A stretch of 64,000 nucleotides of DNA. Origin: Perkinsus olseni. Lineage: Eukaryota > Perkinsozoa > Perkinsida > Perkinsidae. A program made the translations under genes and the position numbers. Positions 1-30,061 of the stretch are shown piece by piece. How positions within the stretch are numbered: position 1 is the stretch's first letter; each line of letters begins with the position of its first letter. A model generated the notes under the pieces. The model saw only the letters and a list, made by a program, of their open reading frames with translations, was not told where the DNA came from and made no database searches. The stretch lies in assembly GCA_013115135.1 (NCBI GenBank), contig JABANP010000238.1:1-64000 (forward strand), written 5' to 3'.

Positions 1-2600
1 CAGTATCCTTAGGAGACACCGTAAGAGTGAGCGGCTTTGCACTCTGGATCTGAAATCGTCCCAATATGATGAGAGCCATCTGAAGAGATCCATAGTGGAA
101 GTAACATTGCTCGGCTCCTCGTCCAACTTTATATTCTTGTACCAAGAAATAACCATCGTTAGTCCAAGATAATCTTTGACCATAACGGACCATACCATCA
201 GCGTCCTTCCAAGCGACGTGAAGTAAGTTCTAGTAGGATTACGGAGTACTCTGCGCTTGGTTGGCTCGGCGAACTCGACAGGCTCGGGAGTGGAAGGTAA
301 CCCTCTTCCTTCCATGATGAGTTGGAACCTCTCTTCAGCTCGACTGCTGCGTCGCAGCAGGTCCTCTTTGAGCAATAGGTTCCTCGGCCTCTATAGAACC
401 TTTTGAGTTCGTGAAGGATGACTGTCGTCCTCTTTAATGTGGTCCTTGTGGTAGACTTGGACTTGAACCATCGGAGAACTTGACTCGACACATTCCTTCC
501 CCAAGTGACGCGTTATTATCCCCGGAACCCACATTGCGTCGAGTTTATGGGAAGGAGGTTGGTAGACTAACACTTGGCGACCAACTTCGTAGATCGGACG
601 AACAACTGGACCTACTGTAGCGGACCTACTCTTCTTCCATTCTTCTCCAAATCTTAGTCATCTTCCTCGGTTTCTATCCAATTTTCTTCACAGCGTTGAG
701 AATCATACCGCCACGAGTCTCATTCGGGTAGGATAGATACTCTTTGGATAGAGTTTGTCGTAAGAGCCTGTTGAGATAAAGATGACATCATCATATTCTC
801 GAATGGTAGCGCCGCATCAAATCCGAATACGATTTTGGTGAGGAGTCAGTCCAGTAGTCTCGTCGACAGAACCGTTCATAGAAGCCTGAATGAATCTCAG
901 TAGTTCAGGCCATGAACTAGGATTTCGTCCTTGTAGGGAACGGCGTAAACTTCTGGCCAAGTGCAAATGGGATACTTCGTAGAAGCCTCCCGAAGAAGGG
1001 TGACGGACTGGTAGGGTAAGGTGCTTATAAGAGTAGTATGCGCAAAGCGCATCAAAGGAAAGGGAGATAAGGTTACTCCCCAAATCCGTAATCACTGTGG
1101 ATGGTGCTCTGTAGACCAGAAATACTTCACGCTCTAGTACTCTACAGATCGATGAAGTAGAGATATCACTGAGCGGAAATAGAAGGCAATAACGACTTAG
1201 TAAAATCCGTTGCAGTGAGTATCCAACGAGCACCACTACTAGCACCAGCTTGAATAGCACCTGGTACCAAGGGCCCTACCAAGTCGCATCCAATACCTCG
1301 AAAGGTGCCGAAGGGCACCTTTAAGTGGCTCTCATGTCGGAGCTTTACGGGGGTGGTTACCAGGCAGGCAACACAAGACCGAACAATACTCTTAATAGAC
1401 TTGCGCAGTGCGGGAGCCCAGAACAACTTCCGAACGTGACGATAAGTAGCATCAACTCCGACATGACCCCGTATATGATGATAATAGCTACCAAGTTCAT
1501 TGAGCAGTGATGATACTGCTGGACGTGGTAGAACTATCTTCAGAGATTCATCCTCATCCCAAAGCTCTACCTTACAAAGGACACCGTTGAATAAAACACA
1601 GTGTTGTATGTAGTGGTAGAGAGAAGGGGGTAGATTCGCTTTGAACGAACTAGGGTCCAAAGATGATTCTAAGACCTCCTTAGCTTCTCGAGTTTGTGGG
1701 TCGCGATCCTGCTGGTTTATCAAGAACCTTCGAATGACTTCTGACGAGTCTGTCGGACCACGACCGCGCCAAGCTTGAAATGATTTATCAAGAATCATAA
1801 ACTTACATAATGAGGGGATGCTATTAATAGTCGGGATCATCAATGAATAAGGATAATGAAAATCGATAATATCCGATGCCATAGTGGGAATCTCACGAGT
1901 AGTCGACTTATCAACTTCACAGCAAATATTCGTAAGAACATTTGACGGTGGAAGGTCCTCTGCGACACGTGAGAGAATATCTACTCTATTAATATAAAAA
2001 GAATTATGTGAATGATGAGAAAATGTTACATTCACTCCTAATAATCTCAACTCCTCGACGGCTTCATCAATCGACGATCTCAATCTCGATATCGACAATT
2101 GCTCTATGCCGTGGATCTTACGGGGTGACGAGCGCATGCGACGGATGGAGACCAGACTATCATTGCAGACTTCGACGGATTTGAGTGAATTCCACCATTC
2201 ACTCTGCATCTGATCGATTACTGCAATGAAGGCCATCAACATCCCGTAAAGCTCACGTCGGTTCGCATGCCAAGTACAACCGTAAGGGGAAGAGCTTGCT
2301 CTCGGCGTAGACGGAAATCCAACCGGTAGATGGGAATTCAACTGAGCCTGAAAGCTGGCCAGTTGGGACCCATAACTCTATTCCATAACCGGTGTTGGAC
2401 GCATCAACAACAATCTTCAGATCTCGGGCATTCTTAATGAGCGGCACTGCCCCGTTGAGTTGCCGCCATATTACTTCAGCTGCTTGCAAATGCTTTCGGC
2501 ATTGCTGCTCCTCCTTGGAGTCAATCTCATCATCCCACTTCCGGTACAGCGGCCGGCTATCTGCCTCGCTATATCGCAGTGAGCTCGACACTGCGCTTCC
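1..2600 (-). pseudogene. RNase H and integrase of element A, frame-disrupted
   Basis: Continuation of pol in shifted frames. RNase H residues appear as IVVDASNTGYG, NRRELYG and CNDSLVS. Integrase follows with an HHCC zinc-binding region (GHVG...CVAC, about 1395-1500), a catalytic Asp in GCDLVGP, a second in ITDLGSN (about 1080-1100) and a Glu in GGFYEVSH (about 975-1000). The C-terminal part (LVYQPPSHKLDAMWVPG, about 510-575) matches the plus-strand copy at 12538-13392. Shifts near 2600, 2300, 1230 and 480 split it into four frames, so it is not expected to be translated whole. Confidence 0.8.
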
Positions 2601-5600
2601 CCAGCTGATCGTGTGATATCGAGATAGCGACCTGCAGCAGCAAAGATCCCTCTTCTAGTCGGCTGAAAATCTCTATTCTCAATCGGCAGTCTACGGACTG
2701 ATAATACTCCTTTGGGGTCCCAGTTCCAGTCGGCACCCAGCCAACGACAGAACTGATCCTCTGATTGACCCCATAGGGTCCTCTTACTCTCTGGTAACTC
2801 GAATCCGACTTTGGAGAAGAGGTTGATCATATCTCGGTTCCACATCGATCGAACTTCTTCATTGGGCGATATGATGAGATAATCATCCATCACTCGTACC
2901 ACTTCCACCATAGGAAATTTCGCTCTGAGAATGGCGAATAGGATATCGCCAATACTCTCTAAGGCATTGGGCCCTATTGAAAGGCCGAAGGCAAGGCGAT
3001 TAGTCGCCTTGAGAGAGTTGGAGAGACTATCACGGCCGCAATCAATGTAAAGCACTTTATTGACGGCAATTCTATAAAATGCCTTACTCGCATCCATCTG
3101 CTCTACAACAGCTTGGGGGTAGAGTTTTGCTCTCAACTCTCTGACTGCCTTCTGAACTGATCGGCGACGACTTGAACATTTTGGGCTTCTGGAATTGTAG
3201 CCTCTGAAATCGAGGCATGGGCGGACTGGCGTAGTTTTCGAGTCGCTCAGAGAGCAAACTGGAAAACACGTCGCCCACTCTACCTTTGGGTCTTGTCCTG
3301 GATGTAGATCAACTTCGCACCACCATTGCCGATCGAAATACATCTGTAGTTCGGCCGCCCATTTCTCTCTCTGCACCGAAGTTAACTTACGAATCAGACT
3401 ATCGGGGCGCCAACTACCTCTACTCTGCTGCTTCTCCTGCTGGTCAGTTGGATCGAGAGGCCAGTCGACCAAGAAGCGATATTGCTGATCATGAGTATCC
3501 TTAACCACACAGCCATTAGGATCAGCGATCTCGCATAACTTCTTCAAAGATAACTGATAAGACTGCGCATCCGGTATTTCGAATAGTCCATGATGATAGA
3601 TCCTCTGCAAAGCCGCGTCCAGAAAATTTTCATCTAAAGGTAGTCCATCCAACACTTTCACAATCTCAGCATCAAAGGGGTCCCGTGAGGTTGCCCTTGA
3701 CAGATTCCTGGATGACTCCTTAGGCTCATTGTCGGCTTCTGTCTGTTCCGAAGGATTCACTCGATATTCATCTTCGTGAACAGTAGCCTCAACTTGAGCG
3801 AGCTCTATCACAGGTGCTGCAGCAACCTCTACAGCTGCGACGGTATTCACAGACGAACTTTCATCGCGGCTCAGAAGTTCTTGGAGCCGTTTGTGCAATG
3901 AAGCAGCAGCTTCTTCTTCCTCCGTGTATATCAATCTCGCTCCTAGAATTCGTAATGCCGCACGACCCAAGATGATGGGATATGATAACTCACTTATCAC
4001 CAACAGTGGCAGCAATACTTCGGATCGAGGCTCCCCGACGTAACAGCGAATAACACATTCCTTTCGCACTATCCGAGCAGTCCCATTGGCACATGTTACG
4101 ACCACTGGCTTGATTCTCAAAACCTTGACATCAGTCGATAATCGATCCACTACTGACTCTCGAATCATAGCCACTGCCGCCCCTGTATCAATCAATGCTG
4201 CGAACTGCTCGCTCGCGATCGAAATCCGAACAGTATCGGGACTTGATAGTAGTGAAAGGGACAACGCATCCCTCTCAACTACTCCCTCCTCAGAACTTCC
4301 CGATAGATTCCGATCAACACAACTCAGGTCTACAGCACAGAACGGGGCTACAGAGCAAACAGCACCATCGACTCCCGAACGAAGCTCAGCGTTAGCAGCC
4401 GGAGTGGTTGCCTGACTTTGGAGACCAACCTCCACGAGATAGGCTGCAGCTGACTGCTTCGACGATGAGCTGTTCTCGGTTGCTCTCCCCGTCGTCAGTG
4501 CAACCTGACCTGAGGGAAGGGGGTTCGGGCAGACATATTGAAGATGCCCGCTCTTGCCGCATCGCTTACACATCGCAGACTTAGCACCTAATCGGCAATC
4601 CTTCGTAGAATGTCCCAGACCACACACACCACAGCGGCGGTTCATGCCGGCTGGACGTGCAGCCTGACAGAACTTCCAAGTATGACCCGGCTGCAGACAT
4701 CGACTGCAGGTTCCGCTGAATCGTGCCGGGTTGATACCGCTCTGAGAGCTCTCACCTTTCGGACTCGAGGATTGCCCCTGCTTCAACCCTGCCGAATCTT
4801 TTCGCTTCTCCTTTCCCGCCGACTTTCTAAGCTGCCGACTTTCAAAATAAATAGCATTGCGACGCAGCTGCTCAAAGGACGCGGACTCGATGGATGGTCC
4901 CATGCTCTCCAACGAGTCTAATATACGTGTATGCATGCCCGCTCTGGCACGGATACACTTATCCAAATCACTGTGCGCCCTCCCCGTCATCGCTACTACC
5001 AATGCACTTTCCATCTCCACTCGGGCGAAAAAATCTTCAACTCGCTCCGAATCCAGCTGCTTCAATGCCTCCCATCGCTGCACCATCTCCGAAGACGTGC
5101 ATGACTCCTTGAACCTCTTATCAAGATATTCCCAGAGACGCTGCACAACAATCTCGGGCGTCTGCTGATCTCGCTTCAATCCCGTACGGACCATCATTTC
5201 CAATTCTGATTTGAGAGCGCCCGCGAAATTCCTCATAATATAATAAACCTCTGCCTTCCCTCTCAATCCGTAAATCTCAATGGCATTCTGAATACGCTCC
5301 TTTATCAACCGATACGGGCAGCTATCAGTTGGGAAACTCCAGGGGGCCGCTTCAACAAGATCCAACTTCAGCCACGAAATTGCAACATCACTCCCTTCAT
5401 TCTTCGCTCGAGTTCCCGAACACAACTTCTCTCTACTCTCTGTAAACCCATCGATTGCCCTCTTCAAATCACTGGGACGCCCGCTATACCACCCCTTGCC
5501 CAATCTATACATCGCGGCACATTGCTTGGAAAGATACCGAGCTAAATGCTCGAACCAGATTTCATCGAGCCCTTCTAAAGCTGCGGCATCAAGCATCGAT

Positions 5601-5836
5601 GCATATACAATTTTAGCAACTTCTACGTCCCGATCTGGTTGCCCTTCTTGTAGTTCCCCCCTCCCGGAGACCCACCGTTGATACTTCCTTCTTATCTCTG
5701 ATATCTCTTTCAAGAACTCTCTCGAGGTAGTGCATTCCAAATTAATCTTTTGGACCTCCGCACCAACATCGACGGCAGGCAGACGGGCCGGGACGACGCC
5801 CTCGACTATTTCGGCAAATCCTGCATCGGGTACCAT
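2471..5836 (-). CDS. Gag-protease-reverse transcriptase polyprotein of element A
   Basis: One long frame encodes Gag, protease and reverse transcriptase. Three CCHC zinc knuckles lie near 4666-4707, 4594-4635 and 4530-4570 (CSRC..H..C, CGVC..H..C, CKRC..H..C). A retropepsin-like LIDTGAA motif is near 4165-4205. The RT palm has the VMDD box near 2871-2894 and an upstream MDASKAFYRI motif. The frame is open up to 5989 within the LTR, but I prefer the ATG at 5836 because it is the first ATG after the leader-like sequence; this gives about 1,121 residues. RNase H continues in another frame below 2600, so the polyprotein is broken there. Gag and pol share a frame in this family, with no stop or shift between them. 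Confidence 0.85.
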   Translation of the reverse strand: MVPDAGFAEIVEGVVPARLPAVDVGAEVQKINLECTTSREFLKEISEIRRKYQRWVSGRGELQEGQPDRDVEVAKIVYASMLDAAALEGLDEIWFEHLARYLSKQCAAMYRLGKGWYSGRPSDLKRAIDGFTESREKLCSGTRAKNEGSDVAISWLKLDLVEAAPWSFPTDSCPYRLIKERIQNAIEIYGLRGKAEVYYIMRNFAGALKSELEMMVRTGLKRDQQTPEIVVQRLWEYLDKRFKESCTSSEMVQRWEALKQLDSERVEDFFARVEMESALVVAMTGRAHSDLDKCIRARAGMHTRILDSLESMGPSIESASFEQLRRNAIYFESRQLRKSAGKEKRKDSAGLKQGQSSSPKGESSQSGINPARFSGTCSRCLQPGHTWKFCQAARPAGMNRRCGVCGLGHSTKDCRLGAKSAMCKRCGKSGHLQYVCPNPLPSGQVALTTGRATENSSSSKQSAAAYLVEVGLQSQATTPAANAELRSGVDGAVCSVAPFCAVDLSCVDRNLSGSSEEGVVERDALSLSLLSSPDTVRISIASEQFAALIDTGAAVAMIRESVVDRLSTDVKVLRIKPVVVTCANGTARIVRKECVIRCYVGEPRSEVLLPLLVISELSYPIILGRAALRILGARLIYTEEEEAAASLHKRLQELLSRDESSSVNTVAAVEVAAAPVIELAQVEATVHEDEYRVNPSEQTEADNEPKESSRNLSRATSRDPFDAEIVKVLDGLPLDENFLDAALQRIYHHGLFEIPDAQSYQLSLKKLCEIADPNGCVVKDTHDQQYRFLVDWPLDPTDQQEKQQSRGSWRPDSLIRKLTSVQREKWAAELQMYFDRQWWCEVDLHPGQDPKVEWATCFPVCSLSDSKTTPVRPCLDFRGYNSRSPKCSSRRRSVQKAVRELRAKLYPQAVVEQMDASKAFYRIAVNKVLYIDCGRDSLSNSLKATNRLAFGLSIGPNALESIGDILFAILRAKFPMVEVVRVMDDYLIISPNEEVRSMWNRDMINLFSKVGFELPESKRTLWGQSEDQFCRWLGADWNWDPKGVLSVRRLPIENRDFQPTRRGIFAAAGRYLDITRSAGEAQCRAHCDIARQIAGRCTGSGMMRLTPRRSSNAESICKQLK
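5818..5835 (-). other. Primer-binding site of element A
   Basis: One base inside the LTR end the minus strand reads TGGTACCCGATGCAGGAT. It begins with the TGG expected for pairing with a tRNA CCA end. It overlaps the ATG at 5836, so the PBS is also the first codons of gag. The tRNA species was not identified. Confidence 0.6.
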
Positions 5837-6022
5837 TGATCCGGGATTGAGGGAACTCAACAAGATAACTTGAGCCAAGATGGCTACGGATACCTCTCCT
5901 CTAGTGCGCAGGACCTCTAAAGTACTCAAAGCACAGATACTAGATGATCGGCTATGAGAACAAAAGCGCACGCCCGAAAGCGCTCGCATACAGAGCGACT
6001 CCTCGAAAGCATCTCATAATAA
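5837..6022 (-). repeat. 5' LTR of element A
   Basis: About 186 bp, nearly the same as the LTR at 13413-13600. On the minus strand it starts TATTATGAG and ends GGATCA, directly followed by the primer-binding site. It carries a spliced-leader-like 22-mer (5869-5890). The outer boundary is uncertain by a few bases because the two copies differ by one TAT unit. Confidence 0.8.
5869..5890 (-). promoter_or_regulatory. Spliced-leader-like sequence inside the LTR
   Basis: The minus strand reads TCCGTAGCCAT then CTTGGCTCAAG. The dinoflagellate/perkinsid trans-spliced leader, as I recall it, is DCCGTAGCCAT then TTTGGCTCAAG, so 21 of 22 positions agree. The LTR copy at 13547-13568 has the same sequence with one further C-to-T change. 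In this copy, 32 nt separate the leader from the LTR end, and the first downstream ATG is at 5836. I infer that it marks the 5' end (R region) of the element's mature RNA. Confidence 0.8.
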
Positions 6023-12537: not shown

Positions 12538-13392
12538 GTGGCCTTAGCTCTACCTCAACAGATTCTCACGACAGATTCTATCCAAGAGTATCTATCCTAC
12601 CCGAATGAGAATCGTGGTGGTATGATTCTCAACGCTGTGAAAAAATTGGATAGAAACCGAGAGAAGATGACTAAGATTTGGAGAGAAGAATGGAAGAAGA
12701 GTAGGTCCGCTACAGTAGGTCCAGTTGTTCGTCCTATCTACGAAGTTGGTCGCCAAGTGTTAGTCTATCAACCACCTTCCCATAAGCTCGACGCAATGTG
12801 GGTTCCGGGGATAATAACGCGTCACTTAGGGAAGGAATGTGTCGAGGTCAAGTTCTCCGATGGCCAAGTCCAAGTCTACCACAAGGACCACATTAAAGAT
12901 GATGACAGTCATCCTTCACGAACTCAAGGTTCTATAGAGGCCGAGGAACCTATTGCTCAAAGAGGACCCGCTGTGACGTAGCAGTCGAGCGCAGAGGAGG
13001 TTCCAACTCATCATGGAAGGAAGAGGTTACCTTCCATTTCCGAGCCTATTGAGTTCGCCGAGCCAGCCAAGCGCAGAGTACTCCGTAATCCTACTAGAAC
13101 TTATTTTGTCGCTTGGAAGGATGCTGATGGTGTGGTCCGTTATGGTCAAAGATTATCTTGGACTAACGATGGTTATTTCTTGGTACAAGAATATAAGTTG
13201 GACGAGGCCGAGCAGATGTTGCTTCCACTATGGATCTCTTCAGAAGGCTCTCATCATATCGGAGTGATTTCAGATCCAGAGTGCAAACCGCTCACTCTTA
13301 CAGTGTCTCCTAAGGATACTGTGACCTTACATTTAGATGGTTCTTCGAACCATTTATCTCAAAGAGATATAGAGAAGGTGGCTTCCTTGTGA
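12538..13392 (+). pseudogene. Integrase C-terminal domain, A-type, with one in-frame stop
   Basis: A single frame encodes the integrase tail (VLVYQPPSHKLDAMWVPG, VQVYHKDHIK) and a further acidic C-terminal extension to the stop at 13390-13392. A TAG at 12979-12981 interrupts it. The minus-strand element A has CAG-type sequence at this place, so the stop looks like a C-to-T change. The purine tract follows 10 bases after the end. Confidence 0.75.
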
Positions 13393-13412
13393 GCAAGCCA
13401 CCTAGGGGGGCA

Positions 13413-13600
13413 TATTATTATGAGATGCTTTAGATGAGTCGCTCTATACGCGAGCGCTTTCGGGCGTGCGCTTTTGTTCTCATAGCCGATCATCTGGTAT
13501 CCGTGCTTTGAGTACTTTAGAGGTCCTGCGCACTAGAGGAGAGGTATCTGTAGCCATCTTGGCTCAAGTTATCTTGTTGAGTTCCCTCAATCCCGGATCA
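13413..13600 (+). repeat. 3' LTR of the A-type fragment
   Basis: 188 bp, starting TATTATTATGAG after the purine tract and ending CCCGGATCA. It matches the LTR at 5837-6022 closely. The spliced-leader-like 22-mer lies at 13547-13568 (TCTGTAGCCAT then CTTGGCTCAAG). Confidence 0.85.
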
Positions 13601-14485
13601 AAGGTTAATGCCAAGGCTCCTATAGCTAAGCGTAAGAGTCCGGCTCGCGAGATTGACTACCTAGGTCTCGCACTAGTTCAAGGAGGATATAGGATATCCG
13701 ATGCTACCTTGGAAAATCTCCGTACCAATCTCAAGACCAAACCTCTTACCCTTCGAGGCCTTCGCACTAAGCTCGGTCTGTTGCAGTTCTGTCGTTCTCT
13801 GTGGAGGCCAGAACGTAACCGTGCCGAGAAGACCCTCAGTCATCTCACAGCTCCTTTCACCTCGTTGGTGGGTTCAATGGTCGCAGCCAAATCCAAGAAG
13901 ACTGCGCGTCTTTCTTGGACGGCGGACCTTGAGGCCGCATGGAAGGCCATCGGCGACAACATGGGGAATGCTTTCGTGCCTTTCCACTCCCAGATGGATA
14001 ACTGGGACGGCATGCAGTTGGTCCTCATGAGCGATGCGTCGCCGGAAGCAGGAGCGGCTTGTCTGTGGCGGCTCTCTCGCGAGAAGTTCGCCAGCAATCC
14101 CGAGCGCGTCTCTGCTGATTGGCTGGCAGACAATGCTCAGCTCATTGGCGTTTGGACCCATAAATGGTCGACCTACGAGAAGGCCTACGATATTGCGGAT
14201 CGTGAGTTGTACGCCATATGCCACGCGTTGGCTCACTGGCGTCAGCTTATCCTCTCCTTCCTCAACTTCCATAAGCTCCATTCCTCCGATGTACACCCAG
14301 GAATAGGACGGGTTACGGTATTCATGGACTCCACAAGCGCTCTGGGAAAAGTTGAAGGTCGCCTAAACTCTTCTACGTACCAGCCATTGGCTGGCAGCCA
14401 ACCACCAGGCAAACTAAACGCTGGCTCTCTTGGCTGGCCGATCTTCTCGAGTACGAGTCGTAGTCGTACTGTACGACGAGGCTGA
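13601..14485 (+). pseudogene. RT thumb and RNase H of element B
   Basis: Begins right after the A-type LTR. It carries an RT thumb/connection region (IDYLGLALVQGGYRIS) and RNase H with catalytic-type motifs LMSDASPEAGAA (Asp), ADRELYAICHAL (Glu) and VFMDSTSALGK (Asp). The RT palm with its YxDD box is absent. A +1 shift near 14440 moves the reading into the integrase frame, where the last RNase H motif (KGKDNSFSDLLSR) is found. Confidence 0.75.
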
Positions 14486-15361: not shown

Positions 15362-15653
15362 TGTGAGAGTTTGACCGGGCTCCGCCTCATGAACGCGACT
15401 CGCAGGAGATGCCATTAAGTCTCAAGGTCAATAACTAACTACTAAGGCATAAATCTGATAGCGATGGAGCCTACTACGACTCAGACTTTGGTTGTACGAA
15501 TGAAAACTGGCCATGGCTCGGCCCGAGCAAAGCACGCGTGCCCCGATGGCACGCAAGCGCACTAAGCGCCTAAGCGGTCAAAGATAGACAGAAAGACAGG
15601 TGACGCACACAACCTGTGCGTGAGACCCACTATCGGCCATCCATCAAACCACA
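15362..15653 (-). repeat. 3' LTR of element C
   Basis: 292 bp, TG..CA ends, appears identical to 21240-21531. On the minus strand it is preceded by a G-rich polypurine tract (15654-15667, CCGGGGGGCA). Confidence 0.95.
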
Positions 15654-16912
15654 TGCCCCCCGGATGGACGATAGTAAGGGCGAACATTAGCGTAATGAGT
15701 TTCCTTAATCATGCTGGGAACGACTTGGTCTTCCGGTACCTTGGCATCTACCAGCTTGAGCACAACGCCGCGAACAATCTCAAGAACGCGGTAGATCGTA
15801 CGATCGTATCTTCCTCCGCGTCCCAGAGTGTCAGGGTTGAAAACGATGACCTCGGTACCGACCGGTGGAGGACCTCGGCGACGTAACCCACGAGCATCCT
15901 CCTGGCGCTGCTGCCTAGCATCCAAGGCAGCCTGAACCAAGCGGTCGATCTCGTCACGGACAGGCTGGTGAGACTGAGCAGCGTGTTCGCTGGCATCCAA
16001 GCTACCCTCCTCCAGAGCGTTCTCAGGGCTGAGACGGAGAGGGCGACCGTAAAAAATCTCAAAAGGGGACAGACCAGTGTCGAGAAAAGGTTTGCCATTG
16101 AGGCGATGTAATACTCTGCTCAGCGTTGATGGCCAACTTCGTTTATCACCGAGCTGACGAGCCAGGAATTTGAGGCTGGCAATGGCCCGTTCGGCCAGAC
16201 CATTCGAAAAAGCAGCATACGGAGGTAAAATATGATGAGTCACAGAGCGGGACGATAACATGTCAGCCAGAGGCCGACCCTTGAAGCATGGCCCCCCGTC
16301 CGTCCGGAGACGGACGGGATGACCCAAAAGGTCGAACAGGCGAGACATCTCACCGGCGACGGTGAGGCTTCGTTGATCCTTCAAGGGGGAAGCAGTACAA
16401 TATCCGCTGTAGTGACAAGTCATCAGGAGAACCGCAGAATAGCGACGCTTCTTGTCCCAACCCATCTCCGCGAGATCAGCGGAAACGGTGTGCCAGCACT
16501 CTCGCGCGCCAGTGCGCAAGGAGCGGGCAGAATCGACGGTCGTGAAATAACGACGATTGGAGCCCGCCTGACAGCCTTCACAGGCGCGGCAGACAGACTC
16601 CACATATGCGCGCAGCTTATGGATGTAGAAGCACCTCGATATCATCCATCGGACATAGCGGCTATTCAGGCAACCAGATTCATGATGGTAGGCCTCAACC
16701 AGAGATTGCGCATAGCGCCTCCCCTCAGTAGTGTCCGTCGGGACGTAATAGCAGATGCGAGTCGAAGCGACGCCGTTGACCTTGGAGGTCTTCACCTCTT
16801 TCATGAGGAGGCCGTCATCGGCCAGAGAAAAGGATGAGAGCTCCGAAGAAAGGCCCTGTGGGGAGAGGTGATGAGGGGCATGCCCCGTGTCCCTCAGGAG
16901 GGGTTGCGCCAA
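15644..16912 (-). CDS. Integrase ORF of element C
   Basis: 422-codon frame inserting the cDNA into host DNA. It has an N-terminal zinc-binding region (HHESG ... CRACEGC, about 16560-16680), then a DDE core: Asp in TVSADLAEMGW (about 16470-16500), Asp in RLRTDGGPCFKG (about 16280-16310) and Glu in SNGLAERAIASLK (about 16170-16210). The C-terminus is basic and ends at the LTR. It overlaps the end of the pol frame by 98 nt in the +1 frame, so a shift is needed for a Pol-IN fusion; the region around CTCAGG near 16920 is a candidate. The first ATG may not be used. Confidence 0.85.
   Translation of the reverse strand: MAQPLLRDTGHAPHHLSPQGLSSELSSFSLADDGLLMKEVKTSKVNGVASTRICYYVPTDTTEGRRYAQSLVEAYHHESGCLNSRYVRWMISRCFYIHKLRAYVESVCRACEGCQAGSNRRYFTTVDSARSLRTGARECWHTVSADLAEMGWDKKRRYSAVLLMTCHYSGYCTASPLKDQRSLTVAGEMSRLFDLLGHPVRLRTDGGPCFKGRPLADMLSSRSVTHHILPPYAAFSNGLAERAIASLKFLARQLGDKRSWPSTLSRVLHRLNGKPFLDTGLSPFEIFYGRPLRLSPENALEEGSLDASEHAAQSHQPVRDEIDRLVQAALDARQQRQEDARGLRRRGPPPVGTEVIVFNPDTLGRGGRYDRTIYRVLEIVRGVVLKLVDAKVPEDQVVPSMIKETHYANVRPYYRPSGGHVV
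15654..15667 (-). other. Polypurine tract of element C
   Basis: The minus strand reads ATCCGGGGGGCA directly before the LTR start TGTGG. It is the expected plus-strand primer. Element A has a similar tract (CTAGGGGGGCA) at the same place, so the two families share this feature. Confidence 0.65.
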
Positions 16913-19900
16913 GCATCCTGAGGACGGAGGCAGATGTCGGAGAGAGCCATTGCAACGACTGCAATTTCCCTCTCGGCGGAGAACCGTGGCCTAGTTGAAA
17001 ATCGGGAGGAACCTGTGAGGTGTCCCCCGTCGAAGAGATGACTCTTAGATGACCGAGGACAGTAGAATCATCTAAGGTGGTTGATGATGGTGATGTCGCT
17101 GAGCCCATAAGCACTCCCTCTCCTCGGTCGTCGGCGTTCACCGCCAGGTTAGATGCCGGACGATTCCCGGGCGTCCCTCGCCCTTCAAATATGATGTTCT
17201 CCGGGATGCCCCAAGAAGAAGCCAACCGACTGAGTCCATCAGACTCAGTGTTCTGGGATGCTGCCACGTGCAGCAAGTCCGGGACGACATGATATTTTCT
17301 CCTCCAAACCTCGCGGACATCCGCAATCGCATCACAAAGACGGGCTATAGCGATGCGTTCGATGGACTTGCAAGTAAGCCGAGCTCCGCCACGGAGCCAG
17401 GATAGGGCTGTGCGAGAGTCGGAAAGGAATCGGAGGTTGATCCCGTTGAGGTAGGGAACAAGGCTATCGACGAAGACGTGAGCCGCCGCTAGACCGAACG
17501 ATTCCTTCCGGTTTTGGTGCCAGTTCAGCATGGAGCCCCGAAAGCACCTGGCTCTCTGTGCCAGAGGGGTACGGTGCAGGTCATCTTGCACTAGATGGAC
17601 AACGAACCCCATGCCGAAGGGACTCGAATCACACGAGACCTCCAGGCTTGCCGCCGTGAAGGAAGTCGCATGATCGCAGTGACCAGAGCGAGAGCTCAGG
17701 ACGCGGAAGCAGGCGGTAAGGGTTGCCGCTTCATCAGCATTCAGCGAGACGTCCTGGTCCCACCCAGCTTTCCATCGACCAGACGTGCGACGCACGTAAT
17801 CGGCAGCGAGACACCGGTCAGCGTGAAGGGTTAGCGGATCATGGGCCGCACCGGCGGCGCGAAAGAGAGACCTTTTCGTGACCTTCTGGTTCTCTTTGAA
17901 GACCGTCATCGCCGGATCCGAGGAAGTGATGCAACGCAGCACCAGTGACCCCGAGCCTGGCTGAGATCCCGGAGAAAAGGTAAAGCAAACCCCAAGATGC
18001 TTAAAGTCAGCAAACTCCTCTACCTCCCCGGCAGCCGAGAAGCACAGGGAGTGGCTTTTCTTCGCAGGAAACTCGAACCCCCATTGCCCTCCGAGACGGA
18101 AGATCTCCTCGCGGAGTCTCTCGACGGCTTCGAAATGGCCGAGTAAGCAGATATCATCAACGTACTCCCAGTGAAGGAGTGGCAGATCGTCGCCAGAGGG
18201 CTCGCACTTTGACAACGCGGCTTCGATGAGGCAGGTGAGGGCTTCGCGGAGAACCGCCGGCCCACATCGTAGGCCGAAAACCAGCCGGCGCGCGGCGTAG
18301 CGCCGACCGAGAGAGCGTATCACAGCCGTGTGAGTATGGAGTCGGATTCGGTAGAACGCCGTGGCCGCATCAAGCGTATAAAAGGCCAACCGATGAGACG
18401 AAGCTTGTCCTCCAGCGCGCGCACGGCGCGAAATACCCGCGATAGCAACGCGCACCTGCGCGAGAATCGTGGCACAGGAGTCCCCAGGGTATGAGCTCGG
18501 CGGTGATGTAGCGTTCCCGCGCCTAAGGTCGACACAGGGTCGTACCTTCTCTCCCTGCACCACCGGAAAGGCGATCGCCTCAGGAAGGCAGGAGTGGTCC
18601 TCAGTGCCCTCCGAGGGCAGAGGCTCCCACCAACCGCGCTCCTGGAAGCGGTCAAGCTCCTCAAGGTACGACTGTTGTTGGGAGGAGGATAGGCCGGCGA
18701 AGAGGGATCGAGAATAGTCGTGTACAGGCCCTTGCCGCGCCAGCGGCGACGACAACCACCGAACCTCGACTGTATGGCTCTGAGTAGGGCAATCCTTTAT
18801 CTCGCCTTCGGCGAGAGGTCTCAAGCGGATGGAGTAATCCGGAGCAGCCTTAACCTGACGCCACTGCACGTCCAGCCTCCCCGCGCGTCCGACGCGCGCA
18901 CCCTCCTGAGCGGGTCCATCCACAGCCAGGAGCTGTTCGATGCCTTGGTCGCAGCGGAACACAACGTTTTCACGTTCTTCAACAACGGTGATAGGGAGGT
19001 CCTCCTCTGCAAGCGCCACGTACTGCAGATGGCCGTCCTGGGCCAGATCGACGGACGAAGAATCACCGGGAGGCCTCACAGGAGTACGAACGATGACCTG
19101 GCGTGAACCCGAGACCTCATCGAAGCACAGGGAGATTTTTAGTGCGCACATGGATTGGACGCCGAGAATGCACGTGGACCCGTCCACGCCTCTGGAAGCG
19201 CCACTTCCAGGGAGAACAAAGAATGTCAGTTCATGATTTCGACCGTCACGGCTCACCGCAACCTCAGTGGTGCCGCGAAGCTTGACGACCGCGCCGTTAG
19301 CGAGCTTGGCAGAGGTCGAGCATGGGCTGATCTTCCAACCCCTTGCGACAGCCATTTCATGACTGACGTAGTTTCGAACAGCACCAGAATCCAGAAGAGC
19401 CGTGAAAGGGGACTGCCCCCCAGAAGGATACAGGATAAGCGTGGGACCCGCCTGCTTCGCAGGCGCTCCGTCCGCGGTCTCTTGGACGGCCCACAGCATC
19501 TGGAGGTCCTCCTCCGGAGAATCGGGATGGCTGTCGCCGGCGGCCTCGCCGGGGTGTCCGCTCGCATCAGACGCGGAAATGGCCTTCAGGTCCCTGTTCG
19601 AGGATGTCGGCTGACGGGATGGTGGTCCTCCACCATGCGCGTTCTTCTCGTCCGCGCTACCGTGCCGATACTTACAGTCTTTGCCGAAACGGCACTTACC
19701 CTCGGCAGCCCACTGCCGGCAGTCGTTGGGCCCAAGGTGCCGATAGATGCACTTGTCTCCTCGCTGACATCGCCCGCGGAGAGCGTTACGGCACAGTTCT
19801 AGCTTAGACGACGGCGTTGAACGACTTGAATGCGGTGCCCCCTTGCTGGAGGACGATGGGGTAGAGGACCGACCACCAGATTCTTGGCCAACTGAAGTCA

Positions 19901-20075
19901 GCATCTGCGCGAGCCGCGCGCGTGAGTGCTTTAGACCGAAATTGCGGCCACCGGCCAGGGTACTCATAGGAAGCCTCCTTGCAGCTCTCGTCGTTGACGC
20001 CCTCACGGAACGCCCTAATGACATGGCCATCACCGAGAGGAGCCCCTGCCAGGGCACAGCGTCTGGCCCACTCAT
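16815..20075 (-). CDS. Zinc-finger/protease/RT/RNase H ORF of element C
   Basis: 1,086-codon frame. Near its start are two CCCH zinc fingers (C-x7-C-x5-C-x3-H and C-x8-C-x5-C-x3-H, about 19660-19800) in place of the usual CCHC knuckles. The protease follows (LLDSGAVRNYVS, about 19360-19400), then RT with DAATAFYRI and the YVDDICLLG active site (about 18135-18170), and RNase H with CDSSPFG (about 17620), NRKESFGLA, LSDSRTALS and ESDGLSRLA. The frame equals that of the first gag ORF, and the middle capsid ORF lies in the -1 frame. The real translation start is probably upstream through frame changes, not the ATG at 20075. Confidence 0.85.
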   Translation of the reverse strand: MSGPDAVPWQGLLSVMAMSLGRSVRASTTRAARRLPMSTLAGGRNFGLKHSRARLAQMLTSVGQESGGRSSTPSSSSKGAPHSSRSTPSSKLELCRNALRGRCQRGDKCIYRHLGPNDCRQWAAEGKCRFGKDCKYRHGSADEKNAHGGGPPSRQPTSSNRDLKAISASDASGHPGEAAGDSHPDSPEEDLQMLWAVQETADGAPAKQAGPTLILYPSGGQSPFTALLDSGAVRNYVSHEMAVARGWKISPCSTSAKLANGAVVKLRGTTEVAVSRDGRNHELTFFVLPGSGASRGVDGSTCILGVQSMCALKISLCFDEVSGSRQVIVRTPVRPPGDSSSVDLAQDGHLQYVALAEEDLPITVVEERENVVFRCDQGIEQLLAVDGPAQEGARVGRAGRLDVQWRQVKAAPDYSIRLRPLAEGEIKDCPTQSHTVEVRWLSSPLARQGPVHDYSRSLFAGLSSSQQQSYLEELDRFQERGWWEPLPSEGTEDHSCLPEAIAFPVVQGEKVRPCVDLRRGNATSPPSSYPGDSCATILAQVRVAIAGISRRARAGGQASSHRLAFYTLDAATAFYRIRLHTHTAVIRSLGRRYAARRLVFGLRCGPAVLREALTCLIEAALSKCEPSGDDLPLLHWEYVDDICLLGHFEAVERLREEIFRLGGQWGFEFPAKKSHSLCFSAAGEVEEFADFKHLGVCFTFSPGSQPGSGSLVLRCITSSDPAMTVFKENQKVTKRSLFRAAGAAHDPLTLHADRCLAADYVRRTSGRWKAGWDQDVSLNADEAATLTACFRVLSSRSGHCDHATSFTAASLEVSCDSSPFGMGFVVHLVQDDLHRTPLAQRARCFRGSMLNWHQNRKESFGLAAAHVFVDSLVPYLNGINLRFLSDSRTALSWLRGGARLTCKSIERIAIARLCDAIADVREVWRRKYHVVPDLLHVAASQNTESDGLSRLASSWGIPENIIFEGRGTPGNRPASNLAVNADDRGEGVLMGSATSPSSTTLDDSTVLGHLRVISSTGDTSQVPPDFQLGHGSPPRGKLQSLQWLSPTSASVLRMLGATPPEGHGACPSSPLPTGPFFGALILFSGR

Positions 20076-20712
20076 CCAGTCGCCCGATGTAGCTCGTCAG
20101 GGACTCTTGGTTTGAGCGGCCGGTAGGTTCCGCCAAGAGCTTCTCGACCTCGAATGGCTCCCCGCACTCGTCCGCTAGAGCGGAGCGAATCTCAGCAACG
20201 GAGGTGGAAAAATCAGCGAGAGTCACGGGATTCTTGCGTCCCACGGCTTCCTCGAGGGTGTACTCCGGGACGAGGTTAGTGAGAAGGAAGTAATGCTCAG
20301 GACCGCCGAGTTCCCAGCCACGCCGGACCACCAACGACTCTACTTGACGCCAAAAACCCGAGAGTCCGCGCTCGTCATCCACGCCTTTGAAGGGACCGCC
20401 CTTGAAAGCTGAGGATGCCTTATCAGCGTCTCGAGAGGCCGCTCTGCGGTCCCCGTTAGAAATGGCGTCAGGGTTTGGCCTCAGGGTAACCCGGGATCCG
20501 TGAGACGGGAGAGTTGGGCCCGAAGGCACCGTTGAGCGCCCGGAGGCGAACTCGCCACGCTCTCGAGAAACCGACCTACGCGGGGGCGAGGAGGCAGGTT
20601 GGTGATTGAAGCCGCGAAGGTGCTGAGCAGGAACCGCCTGCTGAGGACTGGCTGGTTGCCGGCGCTCTGGTTGGCCTCCTCGCTTCTCCGCTGGAGAAGG
20701 CGAGCGGTCCAC
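19804..20712 (-). CDS. Capsid-like ORF of element C (middle Gag part)
   Basis: 302-codon frame. It starts with a Pro/Ser/Arg-rich linker, followed by a capsid-like domain (GLSGFWRQVESLVVRRGW, LTSYIGRLDEWARRC, VIRAFREGV). It is reached from the upstream ORF by a -1 shift at the CCCTTTC heptamer (20721-20727), and must shift +1 near 19900 to join the zinc-finger/pol frame. The alternative is that it marks two compensating indels in an otherwise continuous Gag. Confidence 0.7.
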   Translation of the reverse strand: MDRSPSPAEKRGGQPERRQPASPQQAVPAQHLRGFNHQPASSPPRRSVSRERGEFASGRSTVPSGPTLPSHGSRVTLRPNPDAISNGDRRAASRDADKASSAFKGGPFKGVDDERGLSGFWRQVESLVVRRGWELGGPEHYFLLTNLVPEYTLEEAVGRKNPVTLADFSTSVAEIRSALADECGEPFEVEKLLAEPTGRSNQESLTSYIGRLDEWARRCALAGAPLGDGHVIRAFREGVNDESCKEASYEYPGRWPQFRSKALTRAARADADFSWPRIWWSVLYPIVLQQGGTAFKSFNAVV

Positions 20713-21293
20713 CCCTCGCTGAAAGGGCTTGCTTCAGAGCTCTTTAGCTCCAGAAGCGAGGAAAGGTTCTTGCGACGGTACACGTGGGTGAGGGTCTGAG
20801 CTTCAGGAAAACGAACGAGCCTTTCGTTCTGGAGAGCAGCATAAACCACCATAGGCGGAAGCAGGTCGCGGAGTTTTCGAGAAGTGTCGCTCGGCAATAG
20901 GCCGACCGCGGCCCGATTGCACGCTGAGCTGAGATGCTCCCCCACATAGTGGGGCAGCTCTTCAGGGGAAAGGTCTACAAGGTACAACCTCACCGCTTCG
21001 GGGACCGCCTCGACAGGAGAGACGAGCAAGTGGTGGGCAAGTTGCTCGACCAGAGTCTCCAGCCGTGGAGGACCTCCTCCGACAACGGCTTTCTCTATGC
21101 ACCTCAAGAGGATGTCAGCTCCGACCTCAGGGTCGGGGGTCGTTGAGAGGGCGTCCAGAACCTGGGCTTGGTCAGCGGCGCCCTCCTCGACAATGAAGAT
21201 GTCGCACAGAGGCGGAAGGATCCCCGCATCGGAGCCAGATGTGAGAGTTTGACCGGGCTCCGCCTCATGAACGCGACTCGCAGGAGATGCCAT
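20481..21293 (-). CDS. First Gag ORF of element C, starting inside the LTR
   Basis: 270-codon frame beginning with ATG 21293 within the 5' LTR. It reads through the LTR end and the primer-binding site (SGSDAGIL) and encodes a helical, Leu-rich domain (matrix-like by position only). Beyond about 20720 the frame loses protein-like character, while the overlapping -1 frame becomes a typical Gag linker, so the frame change probably happens at the slippery heptamer. Confidence 0.7.
   Translation of the reverse strand: MASPASRVHEAEPGQTLTSGSDAGILPPLCDIFIVEEGAADQAQVLDALSTTPDPEVGADILLRCIEKAVVGGGPPRLETLVEQLAHHLLVSPVEAVPEAVRLYLVDLSPEELPHYVGEHLSSACNRAAVGLLPSDTSRKLRDLLPPMVVYAALQNERLVRFPEAQTLTHVYRRKNLSSLLELKSSEASPFSEGWTARLLQRRSEEANQSAGNQPVLSRRFLLSTFAASITNLPPRPRVGRFLESVASSPPGAQRCLRAQLSRLTDPGLP
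20721..20727 (-). promoter_or_regulatory. Candidate -1 ribosomal frameshift heptamer
   Basis: The minus strand reads CCCTTTC, an X-XXY-YYZ heptamer, with codons AGC CCT TTC in the frame of the first gag ORF. Slipping back one base gives CCC TTT and then the capsid frame (CAG CGA GGG). The phase is exactly that required. No downstream pseudoknot was verified. Confidence 0.5.
21219..21237 (-). other. Primer-binding site of element C
   Basis: Two bases after the LTR end the minus strand reads TGGCTCCGATGCGGGGATC, which would pair with a tRNA ending in GGAGCCA. It lies within the gag frame. The core CCGATGC is shared with the element A PBS. Confidence 0.65.
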
Positions 21294-21531
21294 TAAGTCT
21301 CAAGGTCAATAACTAACTACTAAGGCATAAATCTGATAGCGATGGAGCCTACTACGACTCAGACTTTGGTTGTACGAATGAAAACTGGCCATGGCTCGGC
21401 CCGAGCAAAGCACGCGTGCCCCGATGGCACGCAAGCGCACTAAGCGCCTAAGCGGTCAAAGATAGACAGAAAGACAGGTGACGCACACAACCTGTGCGTG
21501 AGACCCACTATCGGCCATCCATCAAACCACA
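21240..21531 (-). repeat. 5' LTR of element C
   Basis: 292 bp, appears identical to the other LTR. It contains the gag start codon (21291-21293). Adjacent CGGGG at 21532-21536 matches 15357-15361. No spliced-leader-like sequence was seen in it. Confidence 0.95.
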
Positions 21532-24439: not shown

Positions 24440-25955
24440 GGTGTGGACCACACCGTGTGGTTATCATGTTAATTGTGAAGATGATGTTCATGTTCATCCG
24501 AAATGTTATTCTGAGCATCATGTTGAGTTTAATACCGTAGTCGACTAACATGTCGTTGAGTTAAGTTAGCCAGATGAAATGTGCTTCTTAGGATACTATG
24601 CCCACCACTGGAAAGGTCTCGTCAATTGCTTCTGAACGGTGCCTACGGCTACCCATTCGTAGTTAAGTTAGTGAGGGTGGGGTCTCAGGTCTTTGGACTA
24701 GGACGCTAGAGTTCATCCCATCTGCGGTGATTCACCGCCGGTGAACTCCATGCGGAACTTCATGAATATCACGAACGCCTGATGACGTTCACCGCCATGA
24801 CAGAGGAGACCCAGGCTCGTGTATGAGCATACAACATACTCTATGACTCCCAAATGCAGAATGATAAAATCCCCACTAAGTACGCTAGAACCGCTGGAAA
24901 CATTGAGAAGGCGGCAGAAGCAACGGATCGCCTAGCTGGGAAATGAGAGAGGCATTTCACAAGCCCCCATTGGCAGGTAGATCCGAAGCTTCGTACGAGG
25001 CCCAATGTTTCTGTCGAGAAGGTGCAGTGCGCCCAATGTCACTGTGGGCGGTCCGTGGGCGAATCGGCTGCTCCACTAGGGACGTCCTCAAGTTCGCAAG
25101 CTGGTGCAGGCTACCGCACAAGCTGATAGCCAGCAGGACTGGTATGAATGATTCGCCACCAGACGTTGCTGTGCCTACGTCGTAGGCCCTACGATGCTAT
25201 GCTGTTATGAGGGTCATGAGCAAACTAAGTTTGCCAAACTTTGCTAGCAAAGTAGATCGCTCAGTTCGCAGAAGCATTTCCATCACTGAGGGGCCTCTAG
25301 TGTTAACGTGAGCTTCTCAATGGCAGCCAAACAGCCCATCATCGCAGCTATCGCAGTCGCAGTGATTGTCCCTTTCGGTGAAGCTGTGGGGGGCTACAGC
25401 AGCTCCCCGCCGCAGAGCGACTAATGACGTAGGGCCAGCCTCATAGCGCATTCCTATACCCACTCATAAGGACGAGTCGAGGTCCTTAAGACTCCGCGAG
25501 CGTTATGTATTGTACCGAAAATTCGTCGATTTAGCTTCGTATATTAGGACTTCGATCCTGGTGAGTAGATTATTTTACGACGCCTTTCAGGACTTCCCCG
25601 CGCGTCAACTCGCAGCGGAGTACCACAACAAGACCGGCATGGCTGTATGCCCCTATGGGAACGTGGCCGGTACCGAAACATCCCTCAAGGTCCTGATTAC
25701 GAGCACCGCCGTGGCAACTGACTACGCAATTTGCCCCGCGGTCAGAGAGAGAGGCCCTACGAAAATAACGTGAGAGAGCAGGTGGCGTCATATGGATCAA
25801 TTTGGCGTTACGATGATGGGTTACGATGGGAAGGTGGCCTTCACCAAGTTCGAGTTCAACCATCCGCGTTGTAAACCTGCATCATGCAGGTTTACAGGCT
25901 GCATACATATTCGATCAGCATCCCCCAGGAACCGGTATTGACCCCGTAAGAGATG
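24440..25955. other. Intergenic stretch with doubtful small ORFs
   Basis: No convincing gene. A 34-codon ORF at 25320-25424 begins with a hydrophobic segment (PIIAAIAVAVIVPFGEAVGG) and could encode a tiny membrane or secreted peptide, but it has no other support. An ORF at 25510-25773 has no recognisable feature. 24730-24750 is an imperfect palindrome. Confidence 0.35.
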
Positions 25956-26726
25956 TACACCATTTCCAGACCTACTTAGTAAAACCCCAGAGCAAATTAG
26001 TAAAACCCCAGAGCAATTCAATATAGCCCAGGCCAAATTAGTAAAATCCCAGAGTAATTTAATAAAGCCTAGACCAAATTAGTAAAACCCCAAAGCAATT
26101 TAGTCGGCACGCGAGACGCATTCGGATCGTCTCTCCTCCCGGCCCGGGGACTCCGGCCCACGAGTGGCGGGAGAGGTGGTGGAGCGAACTTCGCTCAGCG
26201 AAGGCAGCGTACCTTCTGCCGTACTGGGGGGAAGTTGCTTCGAAAAGGGGTTGAAGAGGTTACTATGCAACTTTGTGTACAATTTGCAACTTTGCTTCAA
26301 TCAAGCCCAAACATTGTACCCTTGTTGCTCTGTAGTGTTCCCGGCTTGACCAGGCCGTTGACTAGCTTCACGCTAGAGCAATACACAAAGGGCGCTAAGA
26401 TATCATTGACCTGCACACGCCGCGGAGACAGATCGAACACAATGGAGTTTCACCCGTGATGTGAAAACCACTAGTGAAAAACGCATTTCACATTTCACAT
26501 CGTGAAATTCACTTTCGACTGGTGAAAAACGCGTAAAACACACGCAGTGTTTTTCACCCATGGTGTAAAACGCGGAGTAATTTCGCGTTTTTCGCGAAAA
26601 TGGCGAAGTCGCTCGGGCTTCGTGACTGAAGTTCAGCCAATGTTGGCGACAAGTTAATGACGCCAGTCGTAAAGGGCGACTAGTGCGACTTTCACTGAAC
26701 ACGGAACCACTAGGCGGGGAAAGCTC

Positions 26727-27411
26727 TCAGTTAGCTACGCCAGTACCGGTCTGTTGATGATACAGAAAATCGAAATTAATAAGAATACGACATGCACAAG
26801 AGGCTCTACTTGGCAACCCGCGACGCCTGACGGCATGACACCGGCATCTCGTATACAGAAAATCGAAGCGCTTAAGAAAACCGAAGGCACGTTCGACAAT
26901 GCTGCGCAGAGACGCGTGTCTCTGGTTAAAGGTGACCTCCCTGTCATTGAGAACACGCCCGCGGACACGCTTGTGAGGCGTTATAAGCCGCAAAGCTCTG
27001 TTTCCGCCGGAGGCATACCCCAGGTCTGCCATGAGACGGGTCCCGGGAGGGACAACGAGTTCACCGAGTCGAACGGTCTCTCTATAAATATACAGGTCGT
27101 GGCGAGCTCCAATCCACGGCAAGCTCACGTGAACAATACGGCCACGAAGGTCAACCACAGCCTGAATTTTTCACAACGTGAGACTTATACTTAGGTTGGT
27201 AGTAACAACCTTGGTTATGACTTGGTCGACGGATGCGGATGGGGAACACATCAACATGCCCAATGACGTTCCTAAAGGGACCGTTCCCTCCAAAGCGAGG
27301 AAGGCCTAGGAGGCTCTGCGGGATGTAAAGGGTGCTCAAGCAGAAAGTCGTGCAGTCGTATCTCAAGATCAGCCACTGTTTGGGCAAAGATCCACCGCAT
27401 CTGGTCCTCAT
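26727..27411 (-). pseudogene. HARBI1-like DDE transposase, frameshifted
   Basis: Two overlapping frames together show the DDE-4 nuclease pattern. The upstream frame carries GHVDVFPIRIRRP and YQPKYKSHVVK. The downstream frame has VVDLRGRIVHVSLPW, GARHDLYIYRE (Asp), LMADLGYASGG (Asp) and RSIVERAFGFLK (Glu). The break is in the A-run near 27165-27175, where one extra or missing base separates VVK from the QAVVDLRG frame. The N-terminal helix-turn-helix region was not found. Likely inactive. Confidence 0.75.
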
Positions 27412-27716
27412 CTCGTGGTAGTCAGAGTTCTGCTTGTAACCTGAGACAACTAGCAGAGCTAGCAGGCCACTAGCTGTGAGGCTACTAACCTCGCAATAGC
27501 TCTAGTAAGTGGGGTTTACGGAACGGTCTCCCAAGCTGCAAGTCCTGCTGGAGCCGAGCCCACAGCCAGTCGACGAAGTCCTCCGTGTAGCCGTAGACAA
27601 AGCGGAACATCAGAGCAGGGACGCGCAAGCGAAAACTACGTGGACATGTTCATCGCAAGGCCATACGCCCCAATTCAACATAACGACCGGAGCAGAAACT
27701 AGCATGCTAACGAGGT

Positions 27717-27931
27717 TCACTGGGTGCGACGACGCTTCGACCCAGCTGGCCGGCCCTTAGGCTTGCCTTTGCCTTTGGCCTTGGCTTTGGCCTTGGCCTT
27801 GGCCTTGGCCTTAGCTTCAGCCTCAGCCTTGGCCTTTGACTTGGCCCGGGCATCAGCTCGCCCAGCACGATCCTTCTTGAGTTCCTGAATCTGCGCTTCC
27901 TCTGATGGGTGGCCGCCATTCTCGTCATCCG

Positions 27932-27978
<47 letters not shown>

Positions 27979-28810: not shown

Positions 28811-28984
28811 GACAACTCACTCCTGCGATACTTGTAGGTAACTTAGACGCGGGCTGCATCATGCAGGGCACACCAAGGGGGTATCTTTGCTCAAGGGGTA
28901 TCTTTGCGCACGCTGGAAATTCCCTAGTGCGCCGAGGATGCACCTTTCCTGTGGAGGTCGCCCTCGACGCTGGGCCACTTTACT

Positions 28985-29070
28985 GGTTATAGGTCAGTTG
29001 GCTCAGTAGGTTACTCTGCCATGCTGTACCCCGGAAGATCCCGGGTTCAAATCTTGCTAAGCTCTCCACC
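28985..29070 (+). pseudogene. tRNA-like remnant inside the Harbinger-like element
   Basis: Has an A-box-like TGGCTCAGTAGG and a B-box-like GGGTTCAAATC about 40 nt apart, the spacing of a pol III promoter. Stems do not close into a good cloverleaf, and D-arm pairing fails. The part after the B-box (TGCTAAGCTCTCCA) resembles that of the remnant at 9655-9740, so both may belong to one tRNA-derived repeat family. Confidence 0.4.
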
Positions 29071-29955: not shown

Positions 29956-30060
29956 TACACCATTTCCAGACCTACTTAGTAAAACCCCAGAGCAATTTAA
30001 TAAAGCCCAGGCCAAATTAGTAAAACCCCAAGGCAATTTAATAAAGCCCAGACCAAATTA
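29956..30060 (+). repeat. Truncated copy of the TACACC repeat end
   Basis: Starts TACACCATTTCCAGACC and matches the first 100 bases of the 30561-31411 arms, then stops abruptly against the cyclase-like fragment. Confidence 0.7.
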
Positions 30061-30061
30061 G

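Follow-up and report, generated by a model that had tools for sequence, protein, structure and literature searches.

Several LTR-retrotransposon families of this Perkinsus probably use the host trans-splicing leader as the first part of R, a reading of the sequence to which we assign a probability of about two in three. As a rule, an LTR element defines R through where its own transcription starts and where its poly(A) site lies. We found LTR anatomy in seven of the nine repeat families that carry the leader exactly (A to F and I) and also in family H, and in these eight LTR families roughly 30-90 nt separate the leader from the end of the LTR. Such different families carry a near-exact leader probably because their RNA begins with it and it is used in copying back to DNA.

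The leader in the LTR of element A

The window, by which we mean the whole 64-kb stretch of DNA analysed, contains leader sites at just two places when up to three mismatches are allowed, 5869-5890 and 13547-13568, and none appeared in 100 shuffles of the window at the same threshold. The first site, on the minus strand, reads TCCGTAGCCATCTTGGCTCAAG and lies inside the LTR of element A. The sequence bears out the initial annotation, which had reported 21 of 22 positions identical to the dinozoan leader: the mismatch to the dinoflagellate leader falls at position 12. The match to the Perkinsus leader PmaSL1, given for P. marinus as ACCGTAGCCATCTTGGCTCAAG in the part of PMC3101222 available to us, is also 21/22, with the mismatch at position 1. 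On the strength of this match and of the host SL RNA genes described below, we propose 5869-5890(-) as the start of R.

The 5' LTR of element A spans 5837 (or 5832) to 6022 on the minus strand, as judged from its inverted pairing with 13415-13605; its outer edge is uncertain by a few bases and its inner edge reads ...CCCGGATCA. The LTR ends in ...GGATCA, followed by ATGGTACCCGATGCAGG, which places the leader 32 nt from the LTR end, as had been claimed. Directly 3' of the LTR is a putative tRNA primer-binding site (PBS), TGGTACCCGATGCAGG (5820-5835, minus strand), proposed from its position and its TGG start; the same PBS-like sequence recurs after a family-H LTR on contig C108 (C-numbers denote contigs of the genome that holds the window). 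The first ATG past the leader, 32 nt on, is at 5834-5836(-), overlaps the PBS and shares its frame with the long ORF that ends at 2471, in agreement with the earlier view that this ATG is the gag start. That ORF (2471-5836, minus strand), whose start a mechanical ORF finder places at 5989, encodes gag, aspartic protease and reverse transcriptase according to Pfam (zinc knuckle; RVP / Asp_protease_2 / gag-asp_proteas; RVT_1), mostly with scores under the curated cut-offs. It is followed by an integrase part at 1166-2341(-) (Pfam Integrase_H2C2) and by a 3' internal part at 36-744(-), which is recognizable from inverted arms (I3, I8, I10, I12, I19, I22 and I23) shared with 12584-13287. The 3' LTR would fall beyond the start of the window. 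The order of the Pfam domains in family A (protease, reverse transcriptase, integrase) is the Ty3/gypsy gene order. A protein search with a piece of the family-A reverse transcriptase returned two matches, both from Perkinsus olseni, at 98% and 88% identity over 38% and 22% of the query, respectively, and by this protein match the host is P. olseni, a unicellular parasite of shellfish; with a piece of the family-F pol, none of 8000 scored candidates passed.

The second leader site, 13547-13568 on the plus strand, was found by the leader pattern search and keeps the leader with one further change relative to 5869-5890(-), beginning TCTGTAG... (the CTG variant), again as first described. It does not lie in the second LTR of element A, as had been supposed. 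The two LTRs, 5832-6022(-) and 13415-13605(+), are identical at 183 of 191 positions and are mutually inverted, so that they cannot be the two ends of one element and mark two insertions. The LTR at 13415-13605(+) is the 3' LTR of this second family-A insertion, identified from the repeat pair and from the polypurine tract AGGGGGGC (13404-13411, plus strand) directly before it. An ORF with RNase H-type reverse transcriptase matches (13466-14485) crosses and passes this LTR; perhaps the second family-A copy inserted into another retroelement.

The window also holds an LTR retrotransposon with no leader, at 15362-21531 on the minus strand. Its 292-nt LTRs (15362-15653 and 21240-21531) start with TG, end with CA and are 100% identical, and the element is apparently young. 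In it, Pfam matched CCCH zinc fingers, with a weak protease match next to them, and an integrase ORF. The best match to the leader in its LTR was 11/21, the same level as in shuffles. Separately, clusters of a 41-nt tandem repeat occur in both orientations at 25946-31442.

Leader-bearing families across the genome

In the 61.5-Mb genome, the 21-mer CCGTAGCCATCTTGGCTCAAG occurs exactly 85 times and 183 times within two mismatches, against a genome-wide expectation of 2.8e-5 under uniform base composition; a reversed-pattern control gave 0 matches. Sorted by their flanks, the 85 exact sites comprise 36 in SL RNA genes, 46 in nine repeat families (A 4, B 12, C 2, D 2, E/E' 6, F 12, G 3, I 3, J 2) and three singletons. 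The SL RNA genes share the context ACCGTAGCC...CAAG/GTAAA (slash, end of the leader). A search within three mismatches of TTACCGTAGCCATCTTGGCTCAAGGTAAATATCAGGTC recovered 38 SL RNA gene sites, 32 of them exact, and the leader starts with ACCG in all 38; apart from its first base, then, the leader in the LTRs is that of the host itself. Outside SL RNA genes, T precedes CCG in 49 of the 62 distinct contexts, as if, to judge from these contexts, the cap-proximal base were seldom copied. SL RNA gene arrays on C41, C871, C270 and C268 have spacings of about 3.35, 3.36, 3.47 and 1.75 kb, and the C268 array contains variant leaders.

Family H lies outside the exact set because its leader reads ACGTAGCC.... 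The shorter 19-mer GTAGCCATCTTGGCTCAAG matches exactly at 120 places, 35 of which differ solely in the first two bases, and among the 19-mer matches listed are several variant sites in families A (CTG) and H (ACG). We considered variant SL RNA genes as the source of leader variants in the LTRs (CTCGAG and GCCGTCTT). Both are present in the C268 array, and the idea was dropped since, by a rough estimate, the overlap is no greater than chance. PmaSL2, which has one T fewer, is matched within one mismatch at a single site in the genome, in a family-F LTR (C291), and no SL RNA gene of this type was found in the genome; we read the site as a deletion. The three singletons (C289, C445 and C810) have the appearance of a leader, a short UTR and an ATG, and may be retrogenes. 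Those on C445 (L066) and C810 (L077) are lone leaders of this form and thus candidate retrogenes; the one on C289 (5953-6038) reads leader, short UTR and ATGCCGAGTCGG, and lies 67 nt downstream of the leader in an apparent H LTR.

The LTR anatomy is most complete in families A, C, D, E and F. Their paired LTRs are about 190, 228, 280, 240 and 329 nt long, respectively, with 98.8-100% identity within pairs. A G-rich purine tract precedes the 3' LTR in all five, and a putative PBS-like TGG is found at the 5' LTR end or a few bases beyond. From the leader end to the LTR end there are about 32 (A), 91 (C), 71 (D), 79 (E) and 41 (F) nt. As for the other families, a B LTR on C748 is preceded by the purine tract GCAGGGGGGCG, with a same-strand pol match 2.2 kb away, and one on C11 is followed by TGGCGACAGCG; the purine tract AAAAGGGGGGGCG stands directly before the family I LTR; and family H has a G-rich tract before its LTR on C729 and its PBS-like site on C108, with no purine tract found before the H leaders on C108 and C648. 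Families G (C482, C602) and J (C470, C597) are leader-bearing repeats. The LTR nature of G is partly shown, and a run of six G is absent from the 1500 nt before its C482 leaders. At E <= 0.001, Pfam recognized reverse transcriptase alone in C, protease alone in E, integrase alone in F and nothing in D. One family-F copy (C856) is flanked by ACTT on both sides, while target-site duplications are indistinct in C and D. Leader-tagged retrogenes would be host coding sequence with no LTR; these families instead have LTRs and gag/pol-type ORFs.

By inspection, the LTR outside the leader is unalignable between most families, with short stretches common to A and H and to E and I. The pol sequences of C, D, E and F are mutually related at about 24-39%, and reverse transcriptase identity among A, C, D, E and F is 22-42% over 372 ungapped columns of the region, while the 21-mer is unchanged. 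An AG occurs at positions 6-7 past the leader in C (GCTCAAG), E' (GTCTCAG), F (ACCTTAG), G (GTGCGAG) and I (GTCTCAG); in family C these 7 nt duplicate the leader's own end.

In all five families examined (A, C, D, E and F), the gag-position ORF opens at the first ATG past the leader, at distances of 32, 29, 69, 30 and 41 nt, respectively; for family A the frame was read on the window copy, and in the C714 copy it closes after 31 aa. By comparison, the 120 nt before the leader contain 1 (A), 6 (C), 4 (D), 3 (E) and 5 (F) ATGs. The name gag is taken here from position and from similarity between families; no Pfam gag domain was found in families C to F.

The leader is nevertheless not obligatory, and is a trait of a subset of elements. 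Searched with the F pol, the genome yielded 60 matches on 51 contigs, of which 49 (on 42 contigs) were on contigs without the exact 21-mer, a leaderless share that may be overstated because the contigs are fragments.

Inheritance of the leader and breakpoints at its edges

It had been anticipated that family members lacking the 22-mer would speak against a role for the leader. The LTR query 5832-6022 has 25 matches in the genome, counting partial ones and family H; of the 16 that were aligned for family A, 13 keep the complete 21-mer apart, at most, from the CCG/CTG difference. The other three are damaged or partial: one has a 4-nt deletion in the leader, one ends inside it and one is a partial LTR that diverges before it. 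We also compared the divergence of the leader with that of its flanks, counting differences from the family majority in copies from LTR searches (28 of 39 matches used in B, 18 of 41 in F, 8 of 11 in E and 16 of 25 in A); the unused matches are mostly short or weak, or second LTRs of an element already used, and the rows are not independent. Leader conservation modestly exceeds flank conservation in B (34/570 vs 150/1794, with 18 flank differences from the C748 joint described below), F (11/377 vs 67/1169) and E (4/168 vs 28/502). Family A goes in the opposite direction (16/326 vs 19/968), with one partial copy contributing 13 of the 16 leader and 17 of the 19 flank differences. The expectation that the 22-mer is more conserved than the rest of the LTR was thus borne out modestly in three families and not in A, where the test is without power because the copies are too young (full-length matches are 94-100% identical). 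The CTG variant is found in family-A LTRs on nine contigs; its inheritance there implies that leader positions 2-3 are not renewed in each cycle.

Several aberrant copies break at the leader. In a family-B 3' LTR adjoining a purine tract (C748), U3 and the leader are intact and are followed at once by CGGAACACC. Other B copies have 46 more nt after the leader, ending in CAAGGGAG directly before CGGAACACC, so that the C748 joint follows GGGAG. Similarly, the family-E copies on C35, C423, C869 and C247 read leader, GTCTCAG and TGTACG in succession (C269 has GTCTCAA and C36 GTTTCAC after the leader), while on C438 and C812 the leader abuts TGTACG and the 7-nt GTCTCAG is missing. In a tree built without these 7 nt, C812 stands beside C35 and apart from C438 (ultrafast bootstrap 67-70), and this grouping with copies that keep the 7 nt makes two losses likely, not certain. 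As sequences, the C748 and C438/C812 joints are compatible with the splicing of a fresh leader behind an AG further downstream, followed by transfer through leader homology. In family G, the upstream copy on C602 reads ...GATAGGTCGTAGCCATC...CTATCATGGCGACAC, lacks U3 and is followed by a PBS-like site and an ATG. Its 3' copy has U3 before CCGTAG, and the two agree from base 3 of the 22-nt leader onward; the 3' flank matches the flank of the two C482 copies. This start could be a deletion or recombination instead. Lastly, 14-nt insertions, each with a short inverted repeat by inspection, lie exactly between U3 and the leader in three lineages (C34a; C312 and C767; C100b). Each aberrant copy has a plain alternative in deletion, recombination or the decay of dead copies; jointly, they point to the leader edges as places where copying may start, stop or jump.

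How the leader may serve as R, and competing explanations

The initial annotation had suggested that the genomic RNA starts with a trans-spliced leader that has become R. What can be read in the DNA agrees with this: a similar placement in eight LTR families, five of them with reverse transcriptases of only 22-42% identity, a gag-position ATG that comes first in five families, and breakpoints at the leader edges. From how the leader reads and where it lies, from the many families that have it, from the ATG order and from these breakpoints we infer the remainder, namely the RNA 5' end, trans-splicing and strand transfer. A transcript reading through the LTR would be trans-spliced, and the genomic RNA would as a result start with the leader, followed by a 5' UTR of 29-69 nt and the gag ATG. 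Minus-strand strong-stop DNA, primed from the PBS just after the LTR, would end in a leader copy, which could anneal to the leader of the 3' LTR RNA. U3 would then be copied upstream of the leader, giving a new LTR of the form U3-leader-rest. If a downstream AG were used on one occasion, the segment from the leader to that AG would be replaced, and the product would still be transferable by leader pairing. Counting against this account are the inherited CTG variants, a leader conservation that is modest in B, F and E and reversed in A, the fact that the leader is not obligatory, a deletion directly after the leader on C381b whose end is not at an AG, and the absence of clear products from the P. 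marinus leader copies described below.

The main rival is that the leader is encoded, with transcription starting at the LTR leader without trans-splicing and the sequence kept since translation or export favours leader-bearing mRNAs. It explains the leader position, the ATG order, the C602 start and the insertions between U3 and leader equally well, and the inherited CTG variants fit it. TATA-like runs were seen by eye 5-12 nt before the leader in B, C, F and the SL RNA genes, and the 5' leader of a dinoflagellate RNA virus is described as possible molecular mimicry in the portion of PMC10235124 available to us. An encoded leader leaves unexplained why the leader-adjacent segments lost on C748, C438 and C812 end in AG, and why the first base is mostly T in LTRs vs A in SL RNA genes. 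We consider it unlikely, at roughly one chance in five by our judgement of the whole.

The alternative raised at the outset, that a trans-spliced RNA was reverse transcribed once per family and left a leader that is now functionless, fits worse than a leader acting as R, and we regard it as improbable. Leader-tagged retrogenes in dinoflagellates and P. marinus, reported in the accessible text of PMC6050394, provide a precedent, and the leader is decayed in old B copies. It would still have to account for eight LTR families that keep the leader before the gag start or PBS while most other LTR sequence is, by inspection, unalignable between families, and capture at that site time and again would in itself require genomic RNAs to be trans-spliced. 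Even less probable is that the LTR leader is a DNA promoter element, as hypothesized in the same part of PMC6050394 for the relic leaders of dinoflagellate retrogenes, since neither the AG joints nor the ATG order would follow from it and CTTG stands here in place of the proposed TTT(G) motif. Similarity by chance, an error of assembly or SL RNA genes mistaken for LTRs can be set aside almost entirely, given 0 matches in shuffles and in the reversed control and no conserved GT donor in the 62 contexts. The two bases after the leader vary there (TT 27, AC 14, GT 10, others 11), and the intron start GTAAATATCAG of SL RNA genes is absent, which rules out SL RNA genes or mimics of them.

Returning to the leader as R, a bolder version is that it is a self-renewing R supplied in trans by the host SL RNA, with strand transfer requiring no more than leader-leader pairing, which would make the leader a shared currency for promoter swaps and retrogenes. 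If this were true, any leader-bearing RNA, whether a host mRNA or one from another family, could be joined to U3. We hold this version tentatively and think it rather doubtful; the inherited CTG variant limits it, as at least the first two or three bases are not renewed.

Comparison with known systems

If R does begin with such a host RNA-processing tag, reverse transcription would be tied to trans-splicing, and leader-tagged genes in alveolate genomes would have one candidate source. The same arrangement would help to account for leader copies in P. marinus. According to the sections of Zhang 2011 available to us (PMC3101222), more than 100 P. marinus genomic leaders without the SL intron, most of them T-initial and arrayed in repeats, were left unexplained; 3' RACE and blots, used to test such copies as SL RNA genes, gave no clear products, and the copies are not tied to LTRs in those sections. 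From that description we infer that many of them may be LTRs of the present kind. A term search of the Perkinsozoa leader paper (PMC9399869) found no mention of retrotransposons or LTRs, and within the titles and abstract openings searched there was no earlier description of a leader inside an LTR, in keeping with the initial annotation's belief that such an arrangement was undescribed.

Among viruses, the dinoflagellate RNA virus carries the host leader at its RNA 5' end but, by the available portion of PMC10235124, is no retroelement and has no LTR. In viral contigs, the leader pattern was found in one, IMGVR_UViG_3300045993_001077 (L113). It has two dinoflagellate-type leaders (ATTTTGG) on the minus strand, at 2746-2766 and 2893-2913, 147 nt apart; the second is just before a 267-aa ORF, and an adjoining ORF matches Glyco_transf_41. 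A virus may here have picked up a leader-tagged gene of its host.

Cer1 of C. elegans is likewise an LTR retrotransposon with a trans-spliceable RNA. As described in the accessible part of PMC3315495, SL1 is on a spliced 2.4-kb mRNA, whereas no trans-splicing takes place at the SL1 site of the 8-kb message; no placement of a leader within the LTR was found in that part. The Perkinsus elements share with LTR retrotransposons of the Ty3/gypsy order an LTR pair, a PBS-like site, a purine tract and, in family A, protease, reverse transcriptase and integrase; they differ in that a host trans-splicing leader appears to form the start of R, and their Pfam scores are weak. A parallel in copying is with the leader-tagged retrogenes of dinoflagellates, described by Slamovits and Keeling 2008 (as told in the available text of PMC6050394) and also treated in the part of PMC12014239 at hand, which confirms that leader relics in retroposed dinoflagellate genes were already known. 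There too, the leader has been copied into DNA by reverse transcription (PMC6050394, same text). Unlike those retrogenes, none of the 62 distinct contexts in Perkinsus has a tandem CCATCTTGGCTCAAG relic after the leader. The retrogenes are copies of host genes, whereas the Perkinsus leaders lie in the LTRs of replicating families.
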